The notes under the pieces were generated by a model, which was not told where the DNA came from, ran no database searches, and saw only the letters and a program-made list of their open reading frames with translations. The position numbers and the translations under genes were made by a program. This document shows, piece by piece, positions 15,870-22,342 of a stretch of DNA of 64,000 bases. Within the stretch, counting starts at the first letter, position 1. Each line of letters opens with the position of its first letter. Source of the stretch: Acidilobus saccharovorans 345-15 (GTDB lineage: Archaea > Thermoproteota > Thermoprotei_A > Sulfolobales > Acidilobaceae); the NCBI RefSeq assembly GCF_000144915.1, contig NC_014374.1, positions 806,001 to 870,000 of the forward strand, written 5' to 3'.

Positions 15870-17230
15870 GTGGGAACGACAGGGCCCCAGTGGTTGTAGT
15901 CAGGAACCTCAGGCTCGCGTACTACACCAGAAGAGGCATCTACAAGGCGCTGAACGGAGTTGACCTGGAGATCTACAGGGGTGAGGTGCTCGGAGTGGCG
16001 GGGGAGAGCGGCTGCGGCAAGAGCACGCTGGGCCTCACAATAATGGGCCTTATACCCAGGAACGCCGCCGTAACTGACGGCCAGGTCCTTGTTGACGGCT
16101 TTGACGTAGTTGCGCCTCTCAGGGAGTACTTCAAGAAGGCAAAGAAGTTCAAGGCCGATAAAAACGAGGACGTTCTAAAGAGGCTCCACAAGAAAATGAT
16201 GAGTATAAGGGGCACCAAGATATCAATGGTGTTCCAGGAGCCTATGACAACTCTTAACCCTGTGCTGCCAGTGGGCTACCAGATAGCTGAGGTGGTGCTT
16301 CAGCACAACCCCGCGCTCCTGGCCAAGAGGAGGCTTGCGAGGGCCAGGGCCACAAAGGACGACGTTAAGACCATCTTAGGTTACCTCAAATCTAACGACT
16401 ATGACAACCTGAGGGAGTTCGTCAAGGCTAGGGGGCTCGAGGGCCTTGATGACCAGGCTATAGCTATCTGGAGAAGGAAGGACATACATGACATAGTCAA
16501 GGAGCTCAGGATCCTTAACCTCTGCTGCCAGAAGATCAGCCCAATGCTAGCGAAACCCCTGGAGGACGTGGCCAGGACGAACAGGATACCTAAGACGCCG
16601 ATCATCTCCTCAATCGTGAGGAGGGAGCTCATCAAGGAGGGCTACATCAAGGCGGCCGAGTTCCTGGGCCTGCTCGGCATGCCCGAGCCCGAGAAAGTGG
16701 TTAAGATGTACCCGCACGAGCTGAGCGGCGGCATGAGGCAGAGGGTTGTCATAGCCACAGCTATGATTAATAGCCCTGAGCTAGTAATACTTGACGAGCC
16801 CACCAGCGCCCTGGACGTGACCATACAGGCCCAGATACTGGAGCTCCTCAAGGAGCTCAAGGAGGACATAGGCTCAGCCTTCATGTTCATATCCCACGAC
16901 CTGAGCGTGCTGTACCAGGTCTCCGATAGGGTAGCTATAATGTATGCAGGGAAGGTGGTCGAGGTAGGCCCCAAGGAGGCTGTCTTCAAGGAGCCCAAAC
17001 ACCCCTACACGCAGATGCTCCTTGAGGCCGTGCCTACCATAGAGCCGCACGAGCTCAAGGGCATAAAGGGCGAGGTCCCTGACCTGAGGAACCCGCCGAG
17101 CGGGTGCATGTTCCACCCCAGGTGCCCGTTTGCCATGCCGGTCTGCAGGTCCAGGGAGCCCCCGACCGTAGATCTCGGCAATGGGCATAGGGTGGCCTGC
17201 TGGCTTTACGCCGGAGGTGAGAGGCAGTGA
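15866..17230 (+). CDS. dppD: Oligopeptide ABC transporter ATPase DppD with helical-domain insertion
   Basis: ATPase subunit of the peptide importer. Walker A GESGCGKST is near residue 47, the Q-loop FQEPMTTLNP near 125, signature LSGGMRQRV near 285 and Walker B VILDEPTSALDV near 308. The Q-loop to signature distance is about 160 residues against roughly 57 in typical DppD, so about 100 extra residues, mostly charged and helical, sit in the helical subdomain. The C-terminal extension has four cysteines (GC, RC, VC, AC). In related bacterial proteins that pattern has been reported to bind an iron-sulfur cluster. It overlaps dppF by four bases. Confidence 0.92.
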   Translation: MSGNDRAPVVVVRNLRLAYYTRRGIYKALNGVDLEIYRGEVLGVAGESGCGKSTLGLTIMGLIPRNAAVTDGQVLVDGFDVVAPLREYFKKAKKFKADKNEDVLKRLHKKMMSIRGTKISMVFQEPMTTLNPVLPVGYQIAEVVLQHNPALLAKRRLARARATKDDVKTILGYLKSNDYDNLREFVKARGLEGLDDQAIAIWRRKDIHDIVKELRILNLCCQKISPMLAKPLEDVARTNRIPKTPIISSIVRRELIKEGYIKAAEFLGLLGMPEPEKVVKMYPHELSGGMRQRVVIATAMINSPELVILDEPTSALDVTIQAQILELLKELKEDIGSAFMFISHDLSVLYQVSDRVAIMYAGKVVEVGPKEAVFKEPKHPYTQMLLEAVPTIEPHELKGIKGEVPDLRNPPSGCMFHPRCPFAMPVCRSREPPTVDLGNGHRVACWLYAGGERQ

Positions 17231-18495
17231 TAATAGCTGGAAGGAACCTTAAGATGTACTTCCCAGTCAAGGGCGTCAGAGGGGCCTACGTAAGGGCTGT
17301 CGACAACGTCAGCGTTGAGGTCAAGGAGGGAGAGATAGTAGGCCTGGTGGGCGAGAGCGGCAGCGGGAAGAGCACCCTTGGAAGGCTGCTGATAAGGCTC
17401 CTTGAGCCCACGGCAGGCGACGTGCTGTTCAAGGTGCCTGACAACGAGCTTGAGAACTATGACGCCGCAGTTGAGAGGAACGACCTTGAATCGGCCAAGA
17501 AGATAGCGTCCAGGTACTCCATCCTCAAGCTGAGGGGGTCAGCCCTCAAGCAGTTCCGCAGGGAGGTCGGCATAGTTTTTCAGGACCCCTACTCGTCGCT
17601 TGACCCAAGGCTAAGGATAGCAGACATCATAGCCGAGCCAATGATAGAGACGGGCTTTGCCAGCAGGGACAAGGCAATGTCAAGGGTCTACGACCTCCTG
17701 GAGGAGGTGCAGCTACCCAGGGAGTTCGCCGACAGGTACCCGCACGAGCTCAGCGGAGGGCAGAGGCAGAGGGTTGCCATAGCCAGGGGCATAGCCACCA
17801 ACCCTAAGTTCGTCGTGCTCGATGAGCCCACCAGCGCCCTGGACGTCTCAGTTCAGGCCGAGATACTTGAGCTGCTGAAGGACCTTAGGGAGAAGTACAA
17901 CATGGCCATGCTCCTCATAACTCACAACATCTCCGTGGTCTCATACATGGCCGACAGGATATACGTTATGTACGCCGGCAAGCTTATGGAGAAGGGCCCC
18001 AAGTCGGCCGTGATAAAGAGCCCCGCCCACCCATACACGCAGGCGCTGATATCTTCGGTGCCCCAGGTGGGTAAACTGATGCAGAGGGTGGTGCTCAAGG
18101 GAGACGTGCCCAGCCTTGTCAGCCCTCCCAAGGGGTGCAGGTTCCACGAGAGGTGCCCGGTGGCAGTGGCGACCTGCGGGTGGACCTCTGACGAGGTCGC
18201 AGAGGCCCTCACCAGGCTCTCTGAGGCCAGGTACTCTGAGCTTAGCAACAGGCTCTCAATTAAGGTAATAGACGAGCTTACCCTGGCCGTCAGCGGCATC
18301 TCATCAGAGGAGCTGAAGTCCATAATAGACAACGAGTCGGAGGGGGTCAGGGCCCTTAAGTCCATAGAGTCGGTCAAGGAGGAGGACGGCAGGGTCATTA
18401 TAAAGCTAAGCAGGTACGCTGAGCCCCCGATGCGGGCTGTCTCCGAGGGCCACTATGCGGCGTGCCACCTGGTTAACCCAAGGCTTCAGACCTGA
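17227..18495 (+). CDS. dppF: Oligopeptide ABC transporter ATPase DppF
   Basis: Second ATPase of the peptide importer, 422 residues against the usual 320-330. Walker A is GESGSGKST, the Q-loop FQDPYSSLDP near 118, signature LSGGQRQRV near 174 and Walker B FVVLDEPTSALDV. Q-loop to signature spacing is normal. The extra length lies before the Q-loop (about 75-105) and within the C-terminal cysteine region (about 310-395), where GCRFHERC and a final AC are separated by a charged helical segment. It starts at GTG overlapping the dppD stop. The stop codon lies in the loop of the terminator hairpin. Confidence 0.92.
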   Translation: MIIAGRNLKMYFPVKGVRGAYVRAVDNVSVEVKEGEIVGLVGESGSGKSTLGRLLIRLLEPTAGDVLFKVPDNELENYDAAVERNDLESAKKIASRYSILKLRGSALKQFRREVGIVFQDPYSSLDPRLRIADIIAEPMIETGFASRDKAMSRVYDLLEEVQLPREFADRYPHELSGGQRQRVAIARGIATNPKFVVLDEPTSALDVSVQAEILELLKDLREKYNMAMLLITHNISVVSYMADRIYVMYAGKLMEKGPKSAVIKSPAHPYTQALISSVPQVGKLMQRVVLKGDVPSLVSPPKGCRFHERCPVAVATCGWTSDEVAEALTRLSEARYSELSNRLSIKVIDELTLAVSGISSEELKSIIDNESEGVRALKSIESVKEEDGRVIIKLSRYAEPPMRAVSEGHYAACHLVNPRLQT

Positions 18496-18520
18496 AGCCT
18501 TGAATAGAGATCTTTTCTTA
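18481..18520 (+). terminator. Hairpin-plus-T terminator of the dpp operon
   Basis: AGGCTTCAG-AC-CTGAAGCCT is a perfect nine-base inverted repeat (18481-18500) spanning the dppF stop codon. A T-rich stretch, TCTTTTCTT, begins about ten bases later. The layout is close to a bacterial-type intrinsic terminator and marks the end of the operon. Confidence 0.55.
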
Positions 18521-18530
18521 GCCTGACCCC

Positions 18531-18539
18531 TTATATATA
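18531..18539 (+). promoter_or_regulatory. TATA box preceding the structured RNA
   Basis: TTATATATA. Its centre is 26 bases from 18561, the first base before the long closing stem of the RNA candidate. No protein-coding start follows at that distance. Confidence 0.5.
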
Positions 18540-18561
18540 CTGGGCCAGTAGTAGGAACAGC

Positions 18562-18702
18562 GGTGACAGGGGAGAGGGCCACTAAAGGGCCGCAGCGCCA
18601 AAACCTGAGGGTTCCAAGCCCTCAGGCCAAAGCGCCGCGACCCACTGGAACCCTCACGGCCTCAGGCTGTGGGGGCTTCCGATGACCCTCACCCCTGTCA
18701 CC
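18562..18702 (+). ncRNA. Structured RNA candidate closed by a 17-position stem
   Basis: The ends pair as GGTGACAGGGG (18562-18572) with CCCCTGTCACC (18692-18702), 11 perfect pairs. After one A/A mismatch, GAGGG pairs with CCCTC (18574-18578 with 18686-18690). Inside, CCTGAGGG/CCCTCAGG (18604-18611 with 18619-18626) forms a hairpin. Alternatively TGAGGGTTCCA (18606-18616) pairs perfectly with TGGAACCCTCA (18646-18656), so two core folds exclude each other. A TATA box lies one standard distance upstream. I see no RNase P, SRP, 5S or H/ACA hallmarks. A MITE-like element is an alternative, but no flanking duplication is visible. Confidence 0.5.
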
Positions 18703-18712
18703 TCCTGGACCC

Positions 18713-19807
18713 TCACTCCACCCTGATAACCGCCTCCTCGCCATATCCAACTGTGACCCTTCTGTAGCCCCTGAGCTGCCTGTTAAGCTCCTCATCGCCG
18801 GTGTCGACACGGAGCACCTTAAGCCTTGAGATCTTGTCCTTGGTTGCGACTATTATAATGTTGTTTACTCCAACCGCCCTTATCACCTGGGGGCTGAGCT
18901 GCTGGTTCCCCCTACCCAGCAGGAAGCCCTGGCCTCCAAGCGGGGATAACACAACCTTAGCCTTATGGTAGGTCCTCAGCAGGCCGAGTATCTGGGCCTC
19001 GTTGAGGTCCAGGCCCACCACCTTGCCGTCGTAGACTGCGTCCACGCCGAGAAGGGTCTTAGGGACCCCCAGCTCCTCGGCTATCGCTGCCACCGAGGTC
19101 CCAGGCCCCAGGAGGTAGAGGGTCCCTGGCTCCATGTTCTCAACTACGTACTTCGCTATGGACTTAAGCTCCTCCAGGTCATGCCTTGAGGAGTCCTTGC
19201 CCTCCAGCACGACCTCCGGCGCCCTGGGGACCATGGCGTAGCCGTAAAGCCTGACCATGAGCTCGCCCCTCCTGAATGCCTCCTCGTCTATGTCAAGCAC
19301 CTCGGCCCTGACCAGCTCGGCCTCCCCGCTGAGGAACTTCCTCAGGGCCTCAGCCGCCGCGGCCGGCGTCTCGGCAAAGACCCCGCTGTACATCTTAACC
19401 CCTGAGGGCACGCCGAGTATTGGCACCCTGCAGCCGACCGCGCTGATTACGTCCCTGGCCGTGCCATCCCCTCCAACGAAGACTATTAAGTCCACCTGAC
19501 TCATCATCATAGAGGCGCACCTCCTGGTGTCCTCAGCGCTCGTCAACTTGCCTTCACTCGCGCATCGAATCACCGCAGGTCTGAGGCCCTCCTCAGCGGC
19601 CTCCTCCTCGCCCATGATGCCGTTGGGAGCCACTACCTCCACGCCGCGAGGCAGGGACCTCAGGAACTCCCTGGCCCTTGAGGGGGCCACGGGCTTTGAG
19701 CCAAGGCTAAGGGCCTTCAGGTAGGCGTCCCCGTCCGTCCCCTTCAGGCCCACCCTGCCCCCCATGCCAGCTATTGGGTTGACTATAAGCCCAACCCTGC
19801 CCTTCAT
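18713..19807 (-). CDS. ATP-NAD kinase-like protein (COG3199-type)
   Basis: Member of the NAD kinase/diacylglycerol kinase-like superfamily, 364 residues. GLIVNPIAGMGG opens the fold and the nucleotide-binding GGDGTARDV lies near residue 115, followed by GVPSGVKMYSGVFA. This group is longer than the classical NAD kinase (about 250-280) and is usually labelled predicted polyphosphate/ATP-NAD kinase or AcoX-like. NADP synthesis is possible but not proved by sequence. It is a single leftward gene ending just beyond the structured RNA candidate. Confidence 0.8.
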   Translation of the reverse strand: MKGRVGLIVNPIAGMGGRVGLKGTDGDAYLKALSLGSKPVAPSRAREFLRSLPRGVEVVAPNGIMGEEEAAEEGLRPAVIRCASEGKLTSAEDTRRCASMMMSQVDLIVFVGGDGTARDVISAVGCRVPILGVPSGVKMYSGVFAETPAAAAEALRKFLSGEAELVRAEVLDIDEEAFRRGELMVRLYGYAMVPRAPEVVLEGKDSSRHDLEELKSIAKYVVENMEPGTLYLLGPGTSVAAIAEELGVPKTLLGVDAVYDGKVVGLDLNEAQILGLLRTYHKAKVVLSPLGGQGFLLGRGNQQLSPQVIRAVGVNNIIIVATKDKISRLKVLRVDTGDEELNRQLRGYRRVTVGYGEEAVIRVE

Positions 19808-21658: not shown

Positions 21659-22342
21659 TTGATACAGGGGGTAAGGGTAAAGTACGACTCTGAGCGATGG
21701 GAGATCCTGCGGGGGAAGAGGGCCCTGGCCGAGGTCCTGCTGAGGGCCCTGGGCGGGCTCAGCGCCTTCGTGTACGGCAGCGTTGCCAGGGGTGACGTGA
21801 GGCCGTCCAGTGACGTTGATGTAGTAGTTCTTGATAACGTGTCCCCATTCATGGTTGAGGTCAGGCTTGAGGCCGCCGGCCTGAGGCCGTACGCCAAGGA
21901 GATAGTCCAGGCGACCCCCAACTACGTCCCAAAGGCTTACATTTACCTTGACCCAGACCTCAAGGTCACCGTCAGCTTCCCCCTGGGCAGGATGAGGAAG
22001 AGGGAGGCCGAGTTCTACTCCTGGGGAGGGAAGCTTGACCTGGACGGCCTCAGGAAGGGGCTCAGGGTCCCGGGGGTCAACAAGGAGTTGAACCTAATAG
22101 TTCCCACGGAGGACGGCCACATAGAGTACCCCGTGGCCGGCCACGAGGCTGAGGTGGCGAGACTGCTTAACATAAGCTTGGACACCGTTGAGGAGAGGCT
22201 TAGGGTCCTCAGCAGGAGGAGGGAAGTGGGGAGGACCGGCACCTTCCTTAAGGTCGAGGTTCCCCCGGACGAGCCCATAGAGGACGCGGTGAGGAGGATT
22301 GCGGGGAGGAACGAGTTCTTCAGGAGGGCCGTGGACCTCTAG
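21659..22342 (+). CDS. Nucleotidyltransferase-fold protein (pol beta superfamily)
   Basis: Residues about 36-58 carry the minimal nucleotidyltransferase signature: YGSVARGDVRPSSDVDVVV, i.e. GS followed by the metal-binding DxD. The remainder (227 residues in all) contains a predicted winged-helix-like stretch near LLNISLDTVEERLRVL. The target, tRNA, protein or a small molecule, is unknown. TTG start. The gene is followed after 40 bases by ribH in the same direction and may be co-transcribed with it. Confidence 0.75.
   Translation: MIQGVRVKYDSERWEILRGKRALAEVLLRALGGLSAFVYGSVARGDVRPSSDVDVVVLDNVSPFMVEVRLEAAGLRPYAKEIVQATPNYVPKAYIYLDPDLKVTVSFPLGRMRKREAEFYSWGGKLDLDGLRKGLRVPGVNKELNLIVPTEDGHIEYPVAGHEAEVARLLNISLDTVEERLRVLSRRREVGRTGTFLKVEVPPDEPIEDAVRRIAGRNEFFRRAVDL

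Follow-up and report, generated by a model that had tools for sequence, protein, structure and literature searches.

The window analyzed here is a 64,000-nucleotide stretch of the genome of the hot-spring archaeon Acidilobus saccharovorans 345-15 (1,496,453 bases in all). Its plus strand carries the gene for the ATPase of an OppF/DppF-type (oligopeptide) ABC transporter, which ends in a terminator-like hairpin followed by a T-rich stretch (18511-18520); both were read directly, and the hairpin is absent from the list of a mechanical terminator scan. A convergent gene for a NAD-kinase-like protein lies on the minus strand and, 10 nt from its stop codon, a 141-nt element is found, in agreement with a preliminary description which placed this segment between a terminator and a convergent gene. 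Further along the window (21659-22342, plus strand), a separate gene encodes a protein with a nucleotidyltransferase domain (PF01909) and a weak likeness to MntA-type antitoxins. The element was compared with its counterparts in the three other genomes examined of the genus, designated G054, G037 and G059. The features of the locus are given below, the strand of the element being the one suggested by the promoter-like block.

17227-18495, plus strand: gene for the OppF/DppF-type ABC transporter ATPase (Pfam PF00005, PF08352; NCBIfam)
18481-18500, plus strand: terminator-like hairpin at the end of this gene
18524-18539, plus strand: putative promoter block TGACCCCTTATATATA, made of an upstream C-rich block and a TATA box (18531-18539)
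18541-18561, plus strand: spacer and presumed start region AGTAGGAACAGC, partly conserved (AGTAGG in three species, CGGTG in all four)
18562-18702, plus strand: candidate structured RNA of 141 nt, a three-way junction, delineated by its folding energy and z-scores, the intergenic scan and covariance-model matches in four species
18562-18581 with 18683-18702, plus strand: predicted closing stem P1, roughly 19 bp overall
18562-18572, plus strand: 5' side of closing stem P1a, pairing with 18692-18702
18574-18581, plus strand: 5' side of P1b, GAGGGCCA, pairing with 18683-18690
18582-18586, plus strand: junction strand CTAAA, identical in G054 and diverged in G037 and G059
18587-18643, plus strand: arm P2, with a terminal hairpin (18604-18626, loop TTCCAAG)
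18646-18681, plus strand: arm P3, whose basal pairs include one double change relative to G054
18683-18690, plus strand: 3' side of P1b, TGACCCTC, from the predicted fold
18692-18702, plus strand: 3' side of P1a, with covariation over the four species
18713-19807, minus strand: gene for the NAD-kinase-like protein (Pfam PF01513, PF20143)

As first described, the ends of the segment are complementary, 16 of the 17 positions of 18562-18578 being paired with 18686-18702, and the 1.5-Mb genome has just four arm pairs of this kind 80-200 nt apart. The structure is beyond chance: the minimum free energy of 18562-18702 on the plus strand is -93.2 kcal/mol, against -54.9 kcal/mol for shuffled sequences (z-score -8.7; none of 200 shuffles as low), and on the minus strand it reaches -102.8 kcal/mol (z-score -9.2; again no shuffle as low). 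Among 3860 intergenic windows of the genome scanned for folding, the element ranks third on the plus strand and first on the minus strand. The top-scoring windows at 174-178 kb are taken to be the rRNA operon, and the remaining top windows inspected correspond to 5S rRNA, coding-like stretches or unrelated hairpins; apart from the rRNA-region windows and 5S, none of the top windows inspected contains a comparable element. Within the predicted fold, the terminal hairpin of P2 has an ensemble probability of 0.999, the P2 motif GAGGGNNCYAAGCCC is common to the window, G054 and G059, and the single C.A mismatch of P1b in the window is replaced by a C-G pair in G054. Elsewhere in the same genome, beyond the window, several hairpins on CCCATGTG...CACATGGG (L074:17430-17549 and 19461-19750) lie in a long low-G+C non-coding stretch and could be origin-like or repeat elements.

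The element had also been proposed to switch between two exclusive core folds. The complementarity on which this proposal was built does exist, TGAGGGTTCCA (18606-18616) matching TGGAACCCTCA (18646-18656) over 11 bp, but the existence of two competing folds is unsupported. The alternative fold reaches -75.9 instead of -93.2 kcal/mol, i.e. 17 kcal/mol worse; its ensemble probability at 37 °C is about 1e-12, and the 11-bp pairing is missing in both G054 (best 4 bp) and G059 (best 7 bp). An RNA switch was thus rejected on the grounds of both energy and conservation.

A DNA search identified the counterpart in G054 (74% identical), and model R1, run on the loci of the NAD-kinase-like gene, retrieved those of G037 and G059. 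In all four genomes of the genus, the element is present as a single copy at one orthologous place, with the same order: the OppF-type ATPase gene, the TATA block, the element and the convergent NAD-kinase-like gene. Its length is 141, 138, 136 and 172 nt, the 136-nt copy of G037 including 20 N (L043:1413-1432) between the two arms, which probably reflect a gap left in the assembly because of the hairpins, or else a masked stretch. The fold is as marked in two relatives (z-scores of -8.9 in G054 and -10.5 in G059). Since the spacing of the TATA box is kept while the flanks differ, with an insertion of about 200 nt ahead of TATA in G054 and a distance from the NAD-kinase-like stop codon of 53 nt in G059 instead of 9-12 nt in the three other species, the TATA box and the element form a conserved unit. 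The earlier MITE-like alternative is not supported. Long terminal complementarity is what a mobile element with terminal repeats would display; such an element is nonetheless highly improbable here, given one copy per genome, orthologous in all four species, and none found elsewhere in the order.

Beyond the genus, neither R1 in 48 genomes of the family nor R2, a model built on the four sequences (TATA and closing stem), in 214 genomes of the order gave anything above noise. R2 scores 144-185 bits in the genus versus at most 19.4 bits elsewhere, these borderline matches over 214 genomes being at chance level, and a contig scan disclosed no genus member beyond the four. The NAD-kinase loci of other genera have a different neighbor gene or no room for the element, as in genus g5 of the same family, where both protein genes lie end to end. 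In a sister-genus genome of 30% G+C (G046), no counterpart was found among the G+C-rich islands of the 1.2 Mb covered out of 1.55 Mb; these islands comprise tRNA, rRNA, 5S, an SRP-like island, a repeated element and an intron-like island. In the latter (L267:5688-5766), a closing stem is embedded in a reading frame ending ...KAGHAGTLEPDS; this island resembles the intron known from archaeal Cbf5. The repeated structured non-coding element of G046, GGTCATACCCTAGGGACTGGGGATTAAGC... and ...GGGGTAGTTCAC, occurs in about eight places (C1 near 174123-174470, 402149, 525163-525379, 594163, 760797-761005, 923689, 1001409 and 1018250) and is possibly the guide RNA of TnpB-type insertion sequences. The element of the window is hence a genus-level, single-copy, orthologous feature.

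Compensatory changes, which the preliminary description had suggested looking for, were found in the relatives. The closing stem reads GGTGACAGGGG, GGTGGCGAAGG, GGTGGCGGGGG or GGTGGCGG(A)GGGG, each with a matching partner. Over the four species, 97.6% of the cells of P1a are paired, 4 of its 11 pairs are changed on both sides and its register surpasses every slid one; in the same comparison, 90% of the cells are paired versus 40-63% in slid registers, with 5 double-changed pairs versus 2.0 on average in shuffles. When the window is set against G054, 5 of 34 compared pairs are doubly changed and 3 on one side. Template switching during replication, a process described for RNA hairpins, can create and repair hairpin stems (PMC8794818), so that covariation in long palindromes is a weaker proof of function than usual. 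The element could accordingly be a palindrome under no selection, whose paired changes arose by template switching between its arms. This process is expected to yield double changes in runs and long arms that match almost perfectly (PMC8794818), and double changes are adjacent at positions 7-9 of the closing stem. Conservation of the locus and of the TATA block speaks against a purely mutational origin, the element being kept at one place across species whose neighboring protein is only 64-73% identical, and the top intergenic windows inspected contain no comparable element besides the rRNA region and 5S; we consider this explanation improbable.

The promoter-like block is the second conserved component. 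A TATA box at a standard distance from the segment had been reported, and the C of CTTATATATA does lie 32 nt before the stem, close to the spacing of tRNA promoters: a CTTWWW box is found 31-39 nt upstream of 22 of the 48 tRNA genes of the genome, versus 2.8% of random places. The sequence ACCCCTT[A/T]TATA, with one variable position, is present in all four species, the C of CTT being 31-33 nt before the stem, and the block ahead of TATA (ACCCC) differs from the AAG-type block of many tRNA promoters of the genome. With this geometry, the TATA block may drive transcription, and its spacing would put the start site at about 18559-18562, at or just before the closing stem. As no T-run consistently follows the tRNA, SRP and RNase P genes of this genome, the lack of a T-run terminator at the element is no objection. 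Among the tRNA genes of the genome, an atypical one, tRNA-Thr(GGT) at C1:876338-876460 (L115:6338-6460, beyond the window), has complementary stretches CTGGGGGCC ... GGCCCCCAG on both sides and a second hairpin ahead of it.

Strand is the weak point of an ncRNA reading, as the reverse strand has the more stable fold in all four species. Of 50 known RNAs of the genome used for calibration, 42 have the more stable fold on the true strand, with 5S as an exception. One-by-one helix mismatches slightly favor the minus strand (9 are A.C on the plus strand, hence G.U on the minus strand, versus 3 G.U on the plus strand), and the unpaired bases of the plus strand are A-rich and U-poor, as in the known RNAs of the genome. 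The element could therefore function on the reverse strand, as a structured 3' UTR of the NAD-kinase-like mRNA which protects its 3' end or marks processing or termination, a view in line with its first rank among intergenic windows and with its distance of 9-12 nt from the stop codon in three of the species. The distance of 53 nt in G059, the lack of a clear T-run at its end on the minus strand and the failure of fold-energy strand calls for 5S in this genome argue against such a role, which would also leave the conserved plus-strand TATA block unexplained. We regard a 3' UTR as rather unlikely, though it is the most serious of the alternatives, and keep the plus strand because the conserved promoter-like block exists only there and the distance to the stop codon differs in G059. 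Extreme folding on both strands, between convergent genes, is also what would be expected from a barrier acting at the DNA level, either a transcription end or insulator on both strands or a cruciform, and giving no mature RNA. For this purpose a simple hairpin would suffice, with no need for a TATA block or for a three-way junction kept in evolution, and a sister-genus locus has both genes end to end without any element; a DNA-level barrier is thus unlikely, and less probable than a 3' UTR.

Synteny in four species, covariation and promoter geometry all sustain the initial designation of an unassigned structured RNA, as does a search of the whole window with 4227 Rfam 15 families, in which no family reached the gathering threshold. 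At lax thresholds, the elements of the window, G054 and G059 gave matches far below cut-off, mostly to generic hairpin families. The segment had been stated not to match the hallmarks of RNase P, SRP, 5S and guide RNAs. The first three RNAs are located elsewhere in the genome: RNase P RNA, a structured stable RNA with its own gene like the candidate, has its sole RF00373 match at C1:401271-401588 (142 bits) and none in the window; SRP RNA, whose ends are likewise sealed by a long stem, has its sole RF01857 match at C1:753764-754073 (125 bits) and none in the element; and 5S rRNA, which shares with the element a three-way junction, a similar size, a terminal closing stem and a comparable fold strength, is recognized by sequence near C1:479790 on the minus strand, the element having no Rfam match. 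Hallmarks of guide RNAs are not conserved. Reading for C/D boxes (RUGAUGA, CUGA) gave only an imperfect CCGAUGA at 18679-18685 (UCGAUGG in G054), with no Rfam match. Similarly, no ACA follows the closing stem, where the tails read UCCUGG, UCCUAU, GCUCCUUG and GCCUUCUC, and the Rfam H/ACA models score far below cut-off on the element.

In the literature on Acidilobus and noncoding RNA, the sole co-mention concerns a protein-gene intron. The situation is reminiscent of HgcC and other orphan ncRNAs of hyperthermophilic archaea, which were also first found computationally (PMC4247193). Their transcripts were later confirmed (PMC4247193). HgcC differs by its presence in Rfam and its homologs in 43 archaea, and by being multicopy in Thermococcus, where some copies lie within transposase genes (PMC4247193), as opposed to one copy in one genus and no Rfam match here.

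Collectively, these data support that the element is probably a new small RNA gene, a candidate with its own promoter-like block. Its transcript would start at most a few nucleotides away from the closing stem and fold as a three-way junction composed of this roughly 19-bp stem and two long hairpin arms, and sealing of both ends by the stem may confer resistance to exonucleases. Because the closing stem and the shape are kept while the sequence and length of the arms vary (136-172 nt), the RNA would most likely work through its shape, as a protein-bound scaffold, rather than by base-pairing with targets or as a ligand-controlled switch. We give this full reading, an independent plus-strand ncRNA gene at 18562-18702 whose three-way junction acts as such a scaffold, about an even chance. 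More tentatively, it is possible that the element represents a new RNA class restricted to the genus Acidilobus, a promoter-driven three-way junction scaffolding an RNP and unrelated to described archaeal RNAs.

To our knowledge, few structured RNAs are known in crenarchaea beyond tRNA, rRNA, SRP, RNase P and guide RNAs. The origin of new RNA genes could be studied cleanly on a single-copy RNA that keeps its shape across one genus while its sequence changes, and the element gives RNA-seq and the pull-down of a bound protein a definite target in a culturable archaeon. It would also help to tell selection from template switching as the source of paired changes in palindromes.
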